Shown here piece by piece: positions 41,119 through 46,344 of a stretch of 64,000 nt of DNA. The notes under the pieces were generated by a model. It had not been told where the DNA came from, ran no database searches, and worked only from the letters and a program-made list of their open reading frames with translations. This DNA is from Thermonema rossianum DSM 10300. Lineage in GTDB: Bacteria > Bacteroidota > Bacteroidia > Cytophagales > Thermonemataceae. Both the position numbers and the translations under genes were made by a program. The stretch spans positions 1 to 64,000 of the forward strand of contig NZ_AUGC01000007.1 of assembly GCF_000426825.1 (NCBI RefSeq). The letters run 5' to 3'. Position 1 is the first letter of the stretch; the number at the start of each line of letters is the position of its first letter.

Positions 41119-42177
41119 ATGAATGAGCGTAAATTAAGAGAAATCGGACAACGGCGCCGCCTGTTTTATCATCATGGACACAGCATAGAATACCCCCTGC
41201 TTCAACAGACCTTTCCTGCTAATCCGGAAGAAGAGGTGCGCCTCAATGCTTATTTGCATTTGGTGGTGGAGCGGCATTATCCACCCACCTGCATTGCTTT
41301 TGAGCATCCGGTTAAAATGGGCTCTTCCTACAAACGCATCGATATTGCCGTTTTTGAGGATGAGCAACAGCGGAAGCCTTTTTTGTGGGTAGAATGCAAG
41401 CGCGCCGATGCCGGTGAATCGGTCATGCAGGAGGCAATAAAGCAGGCATTCTCATATGACAACCAATTGCCGGCGCCTTATTTGTGGGTGACCAACGGAA
41501 AAAAGAACTACGTATATCACTGCGAATGGAACGGCAAAGGACGGCAACGCTATGCCATTCCCGAAGTACCGCCTTTTGGTGGTGCCCGCCGCCGGGCTTT
41601 GCTCCTTCAGCGCTTCAAGCATACGCTACGGCAGTTCTGGCAAACCTATTTAGCCCCACAACTCCAAAAAGAGTGGTTAAGCAAGTGGTTGCTCATCAGT
41701 CTGCTGCTGATTGTTTTGGGGCTTATTTTCAGCTGGCTCAATGCCCGCACGCTCACGCCTTTTGTGGTACGTAAGACACAGTGGCTGCGCCATATTACCT
41801 TTCAGCATTTGTATTGGGCTACTGCTGTCGGTAGCTCTTTGGCGGCGCTGACTATCCTGTTCAATTTCATCATTCCGAGGAAATTATCCTCCGGCATCAG
41901 ACAAAAACCGGTGCTGGCTCTTTTTGCCTTGGCCATCATTACCGTGCCGGCGGTGTTTATTCCTAACTTGCTGTTCGGTGGAAGCCTCGAGTGTTTTCGT
42001 TGTGCCGAATGTGCCCGCACATGGGACTGCTGGTGGATGTACGCACACTTTAAGCTATACAAGCCTTCCGAGTGGTTTTGGGAATATTTTACGCCCTATT
42101 TGGTGAGTGTGCCGCTGCAAGCACTCGTCATACTGCTCACCTCATGGGCATTCAAAGCCTTTCAGAAATTAAGTTGA
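41119..42177 (+). CDS. PD-(D/E)XK nuclease-like domain fused to a four-helix membrane module
   Basis: A 352-residue protein. Residues 35-135 resemble the N-terminal nuclease domain of type I restriction HsdR subunits (HSDR_N type). They show NPEEEVRLNAYLHLV, D75 in YKRIDIAVFED, E92 and K94 in WVECKRADAG, and a later YLWVTNGKKNYVY. These are the PD-(D/E)XK catalytic residues. Four predicted transmembrane helices follow (about 187-206, 229-252, 263-286, 324-346). Between helices 3 and 4 is a Cys cluster, CFRCAECARTWDC (C292, C295, C298, C304). No methylase or helicase is adjacent. The function is unknown. The thioesterase gene follows on the same strand. The start at 41119 omits a non-conserved 11-residue extension. 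Confidence 0.75.
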   Translation: MNERKLREIGQRRRLFYHHGHSIEYPLLQQTFPANPEEEVRLNAYLHLVVERHYPPTCIAFEHPVKMGSSYKRIDIAVFEDEQQRKPFLWVECKRADAGESVMQEAIKQAFSYDNQLPAPYLWVTNGKKNYVYHCEWNGKGRQRYAIPEVPPFGGARRRALLLQRFKHTLRQFWQTYLAPQLQKEWLSKWLLISLLLIVLGLIFSWLNARTLTPFVVRKTQWLRHITFQHLYWATAVGSSLAALTILFNFIIPRKLSSGIRQKPVLALFALAIITVPAVFIPNLLFGGSLECFRCAECARTWDCWWMYAHFKLYKPSEWFWEYFTPYLVSVPLQALVILLTSWAFKAFQKLS

Positions 42178-42212
42178 TTCCTCACAGATTGACCCTAAAA
42201 GAAAAAGAAGCT

Positions 42213-42755
42213 ATGTTTCATTTCGATCCCGGTAAACACTACCCCAAACTGATGGAGTCACCGGCTATCATACGTTTTCAGGACTGTGACCCACTCAAGC
42301 ACCTCAACAACGCCAAGTATTTTGATTATTACTTTAATGCACGGGAAGACCAAATCGTGCATTTCTACGGCATGACCTCATCGGATTTCTACAGACGCCA
42401 CCATGCTACCTGGGTCATTTACAACCACAACATATCTTATGTGCGATCGGCGTGGGTGGGCGAAACCGTGCATATCTTTTCACACATTATTTATTATGAT
42501 GCCGACACCATCGTGACGGAGTTTTTCATGACCGACTACGAGAAGAAAGAAATCAAGAACCTGCTGTGGACTACGTCGAAATACATAGACACACAAACGG
42601 GCAAACGCACACCACACCATGAAGAGGTGCTTCGTTTTCTGGAAAAAGTGCATGACCCGGTCGAGGGTTTCCCGCAGCTTACGCACCATGAGCGTGTCAA
42701 GCAGCTCAAAGCGTGGCTGCTTGAACAAGGCGCATCACAAGCCGGCAAGCAATAG
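42213..42755 (+). CDS. Acyl-CoA thioesterase, 4HBT hotdog family
   Basis: A 180-residue hotdog-fold protein. The active-site segment is RFQDCDPLKHLNNAKYFDY, with the Asp and the HLNNA pattern of 4-hydroxybenzoyl-CoA thioesterase relatives. It probably hydrolyses an acyl-CoA; the chain is unknown. ATG 42213 begins just before the conserved domain. ATG 42144 would overlap the nuclease-like gene. It starts 35 bp after that gene and overlaps the convergent ald gene by 21 bp. Confidence 0.88.
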   Translation: MFHFDPGKHYPKLMESPAIIRFQDCDPLKHLNNAKYFDYYFNAREDQIVHFYGMTSSDFYRRHHATWVIYNHNISYVRSAWVGETVHIFSHIIYYDADTIVTEFFMTDYEKKEIKNLLWTTSKYIDTQTGKRTPHHEEVLRFLEKVHDPVEGFPQLTHHERVKQLKAWLLEQGASQAGKQ

Positions 42756-44450: not shown

Positions 44451-45995
44451 TTAGAAAAAGTCGCCGTCTTCATCTTCTTCATCGTCAGGGGCTACTCCGC
44501 CCAGCATGCCATTCAAGATGTCTTGAAACTGATGGGCTGCATTCAATTGCTTGCGGCTAATTTGAGAGTATTCGGCCAAACCATGCAGCAAAAACTCCAT
44601 CATGAGTAATTGTTCTTCGCCGGTGAGGGTCTTATGAAAAAGCCGTACGGCTTCCTGTAAACCACTTACCGACTGCAGCTTTTTTCGATACTTTTCTTCG
44701 CTGTCTTCGGCACTCAGTTCAAGGTCGTTTTTTGCGAACCACTCAAGCACCGCCCCATAAGGGTTGGGCATCTTTTCTTTTTTTATCTGCTCCGGTTCAG
44801 GGAACAGCTCTTTGAAAAGGCTGCGGATGGCACGCCCCACCAAATGACGCGCCACGCTGTCGGCGCCTTCTTGCTCGCCCTCATACACCAGTTCTATTTT
44901 ACCGGTAATGGCCGGAATGATATTCCACAGGTCGGCAACACGCGCCGTGGTATGGCTTTGCTTACATAATAAGCAACGCCGCTCGGCCGAGCTCACCAGG
45001 TGCTCATAGGCCGAAATGGTCAAGCGCGCCGACACCCCGCTCTTGGCATCTACATATTCGCTGTGGCGTGCTTCAAAAGCCACCTGCTCTACCAGGTCAC
45101 GCAACAGCTCCGGCACCTTCACCTTTTCTTGCTGCTCTTTGCTCAAGCGTACTTCCTGCGCTGTGATTTTCTTGGCTATATCGCGGCTTTTTGGGTAGTG
45201 TGTCAATATTTGGCTATCGATGCGGTCCTTCAAAGGGGTAATGATACTGCCACGGTTGGTGTAGTCTTCGGGGTTGGCTGTAAAGACAAACTGAATATCC
45301 AAAGGCAGGCGCATTTTGAATCCCCGAATTTGAATGTCGCCCTCCTGCAAGATGTTAAACAAAGCTACTTGAATGCGCGCTTGCAAGTCGGGCAGCTCGT
45401 TCATTACAAAGATGCAGCGATGCGAACGGGGCACCAAGCCGAAATGAATCACCCGCTCGTCGGCATAAGACAGTTTCAAGACGGCCGCCTTGATGGGGTC
45501 TATATCGCCAATTAAATCTGCCACAGACACATCGGGGGTAGCCAGCTTTTCGGTATAGCGTGCTTCGCGCGGCAACCAATCGATGGGCGTATTGTCGCCT
45601 AAGTTGCGCACCTGCTCGCGTGCGTAAAAGGAAAGTGGCTGCAAGGGATCATCGTTGATTTCGCTGCCGGCTATCACGGGAATCACTTCGTCGAGCAGCC
45701 CCACCATCAAGCGGGCAATACGCGTTTTGGCTTGCCCCCGCAACCCCAACAAATTGATATGATGTTTGGCTAAAATAGCCCTTTCGATATCGGGAATAAC
45801 GGTTTCGTCGTAGCCCCAAATGCCATGAAACACAGGGCGCCCTTCCATACGTGCCCGTATGAGATTGCGCCTCAACTCATCTTTGATGCTTTCGGAACGG
45901 TAACCGCTGGCTTTCAACTCGCCCAAGGTGCGTATTTGCAGTTTTTCGGAAGTGCTCAGCTTGTAATATTCACACATAGGGTTATGTTTTTTCAT
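44451..45995 (-). CDS. MoxR/Mg-chelatase-like AAA ATPase
   Basis: A 514-residue AAA protein of a subgroup common in Bacteroidota, often labelled magnesium chelatase or sigma-54 interacting. Walker A reads GLRGQAKT (84-91) with Ala in place of the third Gly. Walker B reads CIFVMNELPDL (194-204) with Asn before Glu. A helical C-terminal part follows and ends in the acidic tail DDEEDEDGDFF. Such ATPases usually work with a von Willebrand factor A partner; none is adjacent. ATG 45977 is an alternative start. Chaperone-like remodelling is inferred from the family. Confidence 0.85.
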   Translation of the reverse strand: MKKHNPMCEYYKLSTSEKLQIRTLGELKASGYRSESIKDELRRNLIRARMEGRPVFHGIWGYDETVIPDIERAILAKHHINLLGLRGQAKTRIARLMVGLLDEVIPVIAGSEINDDPLQPLSFYAREQVRNLGDNTPIDWLPREARYTEKLATPDVSVADLIGDIDPIKAAVLKLSYADERVIHFGLVPRSHRCIFVMNELPDLQARIQVALFNILQEGDIQIRGFKMRLPLDIQFVFTANPEDYTNRGSIITPLKDRIDSQILTHYPKSRDIAKKITAQEVRLSKEQQEKVKVPELLRDLVEQVAFEARHSEYVDAKSGVSARLTISAYEHLVSSAERRCLLCKQSHTTARVADLWNIIPAITGKIELVYEGEQEGADSVARHLVGRAIRSLFKELFPEPEQIKKEKMPNPYGAVLEWFAKNDLELSAEDSEEKYRKKLQSVSGLQEAVRLFHKTLTGEEQLLMMEFLLHGLAEYSQISRKQLNAAHQFQDILNGMLGGVAPDDEEDEDGDFF

Positions 45996-46161
45996 GAAGA
46001 TACTAAATTTGCAGCTTGGAAAAAAAGACATAAAGCAAACTAAACAGAAAGTAAAAAGGTTTTTGATAGAAGCCGGTGGCCTGGTGCGATTCTTGAGGTA
46101 GATGTAAGAAAGCCCCAAGCCCTGCGGTTTGAATGCTTGGTTAAACCTAACCTCAATACTT

Positions 46162-46344
46162 ATGGAAGTAGTGCAAAAAGAACAGCTCATGGAAAAGCGG
46201 ATGCGTTTGTTGGAATTACTACGCACCCGCCATTTATCGCCGGAAACCGAACAGCTGGTGCGGCAGGACTTGCGAGAGGTAGAGCGCAAACTTCTCCAAC
46301 TACAGGAAAGCGAAGCCCTGAAAGACACAAAACTTCAGGGGTGA
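46162..46344 (+). CDS. Small hypothetical coiled-coil protein
   Basis: A possible 60-residue protein rich in Glu, Leu, Arg and Gln, with a heptad-like pattern (MRLLELLRTRHLSPETEQLV then DLREVERKLLQLQE). It has no Cys, no signal peptide and no recognised family. It ends 66 bp before rpsT, upstream of the rpsT promoter. A TAAATTTG box lies far upstream at 46004-46011. The codon pattern looks coding, but support is modest. Confidence 0.4.
   Translation: MEVVQKEQLMEKRMRLLELLRTRHLSPETEQLVRQDLREVERKLLQLQESEALKDTKLQG

Follow-up and report, generated by a model that had tools for sequence, protein, structure and literature searches.

What would a nuclease domain of the restriction type do at a membrane? 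The question is raised by a 352-aa open reading frame in the window, by which we mean the whole 64,000-nt stretch of Thermonema rossianum DSM 10300 DNA analysed here (positions 1 to 64,000 of contig NZ_AUGC01000007.1). Its product joins an N-terminal PD-(D/E)XK domain to a predicted four-helix membrane module that carries a cysteine cluster and a WWxxxH motif (Table 1). A preliminary description, made from the letters alone, had proposed a membrane-bound nuclease with a possible metal or iron-sulfur site, acting in defence or DNA uptake.

Table 1. Features of the gene and its product, with window coordinates (residue numbers refer to the 352-aa chain)
Feature	Coordinates	Strand	Basis
Whole gene, 352 aa, PD-(D/E)XK (HSDR_N_2) domain and four-helix membrane module	41119..42177	+	Open frame; full Cys-type chain in 17 genomes of two families; dN/dS 0.083
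HSDR_N_2 nuclease domain, residues 36-140	41224..41538	+	Pfam PF13588, E 3.5e-18; BsaXI nuclease domain Z 11.7, model residues 2-161
Active-site residues D75, E92, K94	41341..41400	+	Invariant in 17/17 Cys-type and 11/11 Cys-less rows and in the short form G008
Q109-x3-Y113 motif	41443..41457	+	Invariant in 29/29 rows
Helix 185-210, predicted TM1 (in to out)	41671..41748	+	AlphaFold2/DSSP; mean hydropathy 1.69 over 14 rows
Helix 228-246, predicted TM2 (out to in), least hydrophobic	41800..41856	+	AlphaFold2/DSSP; mean hydropathy 0.97
Helix 262-285, predicted TM3 (in to out)	41902..41973	+	AlphaFold2/DSSP; mean hydropathy 1.75
Cys cluster C292, C295, C298, C304 (C-x2-C-x2-C-x5-C), between helices 3 and 4, predicted extracytoplasmic	41992..42030	+	Four Cys in 17/17 Cys-type rows; side from charge counts
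WWxxxH motif (W305, W306, H310), just after the Cys cluster	42031..42048	+	WW in 28/28 and H in 27/28 full-length rows, Cys-less rows included
Helix 320-351, predicted TM4 (out to in)	42076..42171	+	AlphaFold2/DSSP; mean hydropathy 1.35

Nuclease fold, active site and kinship

A Pfam scan of the chain up to E 5 found HSDR_N_2 alone, at 66.1 bits against a cut-off of 25, and all 14 rows of alignment A1 matched the same family (E up to 1). The profile search that the preliminary description had called for thus returned the expected family from the N-terminal part, and its proposed pattern at residues ~35-135 was borne out, with D75, E92 and K94 at the places given. A Type I motor subunit was rejected because the chain has no helicase, HSDR_N_2 being its sole Pfam domain; the best NCBIfam model was a Type I R subunit, matched weakly at residues 84-136 (E 0.18). 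Conservation was read from 29 aligned rows, made up of 17 chains with the cysteine cluster (Cys-type) from the window's own family (f1) and a second family (f2), 11 Cys-less chains from a third family (f19), and the short form G008. E37, E38, D75, E92, K94, Q109 and Y113 were identical in every row. The Q109-x3-Y113 pair, absent from the preliminary description, resembles the QxxxY motif of RecB/HsdR nucleases.

The AlphaFold2 model of the whole chain (mean pLDDT 82.9, pTM 0.53) shows an alpha/beta domain to about residue 154; at this pTM the mutual placement of the two halves is unsure. Realignment of structures placed DNA-bound BsaXI first (8w2p_A; Z 11.7, 144 residues, rmsd 3.2), followed by an HsdR fragment (Z 8.6) and the EcoR124I HsdR subunit (Z 7.2), which supports a PD-(D/E)XK fold in the stretch where one had been proposed. 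In BsaXI, cutting requires E73, D90, E105 and K107 (PMC11997821), and D75, E92 and K94 are presumably the counterparts of the last three; the D...ExK arrangement, as in BsaXI, is kept in 29/29 rows. Two observations count against the functional reading that we favour below: the invariant loop 65-70 has the lowest confidence of the model (pLDDT < 50), and a second BsaXI entry, 8w0p_A, aligns at just Z 6.0. Foldseek on its own found nothing that reached E 0.001, and the EcoR124I HsdR subunit headed its list at E 0.054. The whole-chain profile matched no PDB chain up to E 1, and the only PDB match of the nuclease-domain profile, a collagen chimera at E 0.25, was not credible.

The preliminary description held that HsdR-like domains sit in motor subunits or occur alone. 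This did not hold, as the nearest relatives of the domain in Bacteroidota are the N-terminal domains of N6-methyltransferase fusions, an arrangement like that of BsaXI. For one such methylase-fused relative, P0002, the best PDB match was RM.BsaXI, through the methylase part. In the same vein, four models of PADLOC-DB 2.0.0 match the window protein (E up to 0.01), the best being MTase_I PDLC03030 at residues 34-156 and the other three being confined to residues 35-136; the best models are Type I methyltransferases that match through their N-terminal part only, and no model in this database covers the whole protein. The product differs from the BsaXI RM subunit (Type IIB), with which it shares the fold and the active site of the N-terminal endonuclease domain, in having a membrane module instead of a methylase domain, and from HsdR of EcoR124I, which belongs to the same Pfam domain families (HSDR_N, HSDR_N_2) and has the same fold, in being 352 aa long, with a membrane half and without the helicase/translocase motor.

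A tree of 54 nuclease domains set apart 13 standalone HSDR_N_2 proteins of Bacteroidota (99/97), which have the same domain without the membrane half; one standalone protein is encoded in the window's own genome (G000:C6:190613-190942). The 17 domains from f1 and f2 grouped together with modest support (80/91), the 11 f19 domains joined 9 of the 12 methylase fusions (97/94), and holding all 28 membrane forms together was rejected (AU p 0.022). At the same time, the membrane halves of f19 and f1/f2 are alike (hhalign over 102 columns, with a probability of 75% and P 2.5e-5), with a score of 38.0; the reversed alignment scored 26.6, and none of 100 column shuffles exceeded 19.4. These results hint that a related membrane module joined such a nuclease twice, or else long branches mislead the tree.

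The membrane half and its predicted outer loop

The four predicted transmembrane helices of the preliminary description were recovered as helices in the AlphaFold2 model with matching hydropathy, TM2 being the least sure, as its hydropathy is the lowest. The C-terminal half modelled alone gave pLDDT 88.2 and pTM 0.83. Over 14 rows, Lys plus Arg averaged 2.5 ahead of TM1 and 2.0 at the C-terminus; the TM1-TM2 and TM2-TM3 loops had 3.4 and 6.5, and the TM3-TM4 loop, which is longer, had 4.7 beside 3.9 acidic residues. Under the positive-inside rule these counts predict both ends in the cytoplasm and the cysteine loop outside, mainly on the strength of the TM2-TM3 loop. The topology is uncertain, given that the TM1-TM2 loop, outside in the model, is net positive (3.4 K+R vs 1.1 D+E) and that TM2 is weakly hydrophobic. 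In searches of the membrane half against Pfam, 11 families besides HSDR_N_2 and HSDR_N appeared, each weak and in one or two of 14 rows; Foldseek against the PDB gave 44 matches up to E 10 and none at 0.001, and realignment to 202 chains gave a best Z of 7.1, for a bacterial dynamin, so that no credible relative emerged from these searches, a result that falls short of proving a new fold.

The cysteines lie between helices 3 and 4, where a CxxCxxCx5C cluster had been described, and close homologues retain them: all 17 Cys-type chains have the four conserved cysteines that would be looked for in an iron-sulfur or zinc Cys4 protein, spaced as CxxCxxCx5C in 7 chains and as CxxCCx5C in 10. The cluster is missing as a block in all 11 f19 chains, which retain the WWxxxH element, suggesting either that the cluster is an elaboration or that the block was lost in f19. 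The WWxxxH motif is thus more widely conserved than the neighbouring cysteines. With the loop predicted to lie outside, a pair of disulfides is more probable than an iron-sulfur cluster, which the Cys-less relatives also speak against. Hence the earlier proposal stands in part: a membrane-bound nuclease is our best reading, on predicted topology, and the cysteine cluster is conserved, while a metal site is disfavoured.

Distribution, selection and gene neighbourhood

The full Cys-type chain was found in 14 of 98 genomes searched, the window's own included (8/8 sampled from f1, 6/7 from f2), and four f19 genomes in the same search matched with the Cys-less form. Searches within families found a match in 11/11 f2 genomes, nine with the full Cys-type chain and two, of genus g5, with a short form, and the Cys-less form in 11/18 f19 genomes; a further f19 match, in G487, covered the nuclease part only, in a 718-aa frame, and was set aside. 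The short forms are L017 (G008) and G513:C11:44891-45679; in G008 the nuclease domain is followed by two hydrophobic stretches and a tail rich in Lys/Arg, and TM3, the cysteine cluster and TM4 are missing. The presence in 8/8 sampled f1 and 11/11 f2 genomes (two with the short form) is a core-gene pattern.

Whether the two halves occur together elsewhere, as the preliminary description had asked, was surveyed with a profile of the Cys-type membrane half. Strong matches came from 17 of 390 genomes of the order, in two families, and from one of 395 genomes of the phylum, the window's own, and in both samples every one lay inside the fused gene. When the nuclease half was included, 134/395 phylum genomes matched at 1e-10, and both halves were covered in the window's own genome only. 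Weak membrane-half matches in six more genomes of the order (E 0.0025-0.008) and a second one in G007 (0.0021) were treated as chance, and a match in a 1059-aa frame of G009 (E 2.5e-5) was set aside, as the nuclease motif is missing from every frame at that locus. An alignment scan of genome contigs found the gene at nine loci, in named records including Raineya orbicola, Bernardetia and Flexibacter, and a single-sequence scan of the same collection confirmed no relative; the closest 16S relative of Raineya is Thermonema (PMC5982127). The full chain was not found in phage, plasmid and viral collections, where the matches, in three plasmid records and one phage, were to annotated methylases through the nuclease domain only, and neither scan of viral contigs confirmed a relative.

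Against a congener, whose protein is 85% identical, the gene has a dN/dS of 0.083, with 0.087 over residues 1-160 and 0.068 over residues 173-352; near-saturation of synonymous sites (dS 1.02) makes these values rough. Purifying selection acts on both halves with similar strength; 12 neighbours ranged from 0.012 to 0.311, with 0.085 for the adjacent 2-oxoacid dehydrogenase acyltransferase. In the best full-length tree, where long branches are flagged, f1 is split by a starred branch that places G002 with f2; a single f1 clade was not rejected (AU p 0.20), and vertical descent is possible.

The nine flanking genes in the window encode an AraC-type regulator, an acyl-CoA dehydrogenase, the 2-oxoacid dehydrogenase acyltransferase, a 4HBT_2 thioesterase, an alanine dehydrogenase, TsaE, a 625-aa frame, RadC and a TonB receptor. 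None of the nine matched PADLOC at 1e-5, so that the suggestion to look beside defence genes led to nothing here, and no methylase or specificity subunit was recognised among them (one has no family match). The window and 20 further loci share gene order among close relatives only, and the nameable next genes elsewhere look housekeeping by eye (response regulators and glycosyltransferase-like, aminotransferase-like and uroporphyrinogen decarboxylase-like genes). These flanking genes speak against a defence-island gene, and such a neighbourhood, together with absence from mobile collections, is atypical of genes of that class.

Some local details were also observed. At four f19 loci of one genus (L099-L102), a secreted thioredoxin-like gene, identified by eye and encoding 393-402 aa, lies directly downstream on the same strand in 4/4, and the one fully read sequence has WCPNC. 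With a start at ATG 42144, the thioesterase frame (42144-42755) would run over the last 34 bases of the gene, but the congener frame starts at the ATG matching 42213, which is therefore probably the true start. For the 625-aa frame (44451-46328), a MoxR/Mg-chelatase-like ATPase by eye, no Pfam family was found at 1e-5, and the congener frame of 508 aa suggests that its N-terminal part is probably non-coding.

A proposed nuclease held at the membrane

Our preferred reading, put forward tentatively, is a membrane-tethered DNase that would act on entering DNA. The fusion to a membrane anchor suggests that the nuclease is probably kept at the inner membrane, the entry site of foreign DNA. The product would be a polytopic inner-membrane protein whose four helices anchor the nuclease, with the PD-(D/E)XK domain facing the cytoplasm and cutting DNA that reaches the membrane, most likely foreign DNA on entry; the TM3-TM4 loop, outside, would probably be braced by two disulfides, and the conserved WWxxxH element may dock an envelope partner. 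Tethering would then stand in for methylation in sparing the chromosome, as in SNIPE. Against this counts that no DNA-recognition part is visible in the chain.

SNIPE (PD-lambda-1) provides the mechanistic precedent. In PMC13190303 it is described as a nuclease tethered to the membrane that cleaves phage DNA while this is being injected; without its membrane helix it cuts the host chromosome, which its authors take to mean that tethering spares the chromosome. A review (PMC12904381) counts Zorya, Kiwa and SNIPE among the DNA-targeting systems that localise to the membrane. Like SNIPE, the window protein is a single polypeptide with a cytoplasmic nuclease at the inner membrane, predicted here from helices and charge. 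SNIPE, however, has a GIY-YIG nuclease, DUF4041 and an N-terminal anchor, whereas the window protein has its PD-(D/E)XK domain first, followed by four transmembrane helices, and neither GIY-YIG nor DUF4041 in Pfam; SNIPE homologues have one transmembrane helix in 59% of cases and two in 7%, and are scattered over many clades in up to 10% of genomes (both from PMC13190303), in contrast to a gene that is near-universal in two families. The window protein is not a SNIPE member and at most shares with it the principle of membrane tethering. The role in defence suggested earlier thus has a mechanistic precedent on its side, and the lack of PADLOC matches among the flanking genes and the core-gene distribution against it.

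An alternative is a membrane nuclease that processes the cell's own or taken-up DNA, in repair, chromosome handling, scavenging or transformation, and not in defence. Near-universal presence in two families, an f1 clade that the tree does not reject, housekeeping neighbours on the window and a dN/dS close to that of the adjacent acyltransferase and within the range of the neighbours would all be expected of such an enzyme. The restriction-methylase kinship of the nuclease domain argues the other way, as does the finding that no operon partner points to a pathway; moreover, strong matches were confined to two families in the order sample and to the window's own genome in the phylum sample, so that the gene is lineage-restricted and its function not a general housekeeping one. 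We consider such a role possible, if somewhat doubtful. A sensor of redox state or damage in the envelope, whose outer Cys/WWxxxH loop would free or activate the nuclease against the cell's own DNA or RNA in an abortive response, could account for the four invariant cysteines of the Cys-type chains beside WWxxxH in a loop predicted to lie outside, and for a membrane half about as constrained as the nuclease half. We find it improbable: the 11/11 f19 relatives without the cluster rule out redox sensing as a function shared by all forms, no partner gene turned up at the loci analysed, and a suicidal gene is rarely universal. Equally hard to credit is a PD-(D/E)XK domain that cuts RNA or does not cut at all and serves as a nucleic-acid-binding tether at the membrane. 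KwaB of Kiwa, described in PMC12904381 as binding DNA at the membrane without cleavage, is a parallel, but seven residues (E37, E38, D75, E92, K94, Q109 and Y113) invariant in 29/29 rows would be unusual for a dead enzyme.

The membrane-tethered DNase that we favour could be taken further, as an innate membrane restriction enzyme hard-wired in the core genome of two families: a nuclease of the BsaXI type that has shed its methylase and specificity subunit and tells self from non-self by membrane position and not by methylation, with the polytopic domain (WWxxxH, and in one branch the outer Cys4 brace) as the aiming part. In this full form we think the proposal unlikely.

The kind of nuclease domain and the principle of membrane tethering are both known; what is new in the searchable literature is the fusion of a restriction-type nuclease to a four-helix anchor of unfamiliar kind. 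Other membrane-linked PD-(D/E)XK proteins exist, some of them Mrr-like. Our search of openly licensed literature, with few subscription papers, found no description of a polytopic membrane module joined to HSDR_N or a similar PD-(D/E)XK domain and nothing of use on EcoKI at the membrane; PMC1913061 mentions transmembrane segments solely as a method.

If the gene is a housekeeping one, it would encode a membrane DNA-processing enzyme of Cytophagales so far undescribed in that searchable literature. A nuclease aimed at foreign DNA by membrane position has been shown only recently, in SNIPE and in a related form in Zorya, and if our preferred reading is true, the window protein would embody the membrane-tethering principle in an independent and unusually static form, kept as a core gene in whole families. 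It also makes testable how cells tolerate a restriction nuclease when no methylase accompanies it.
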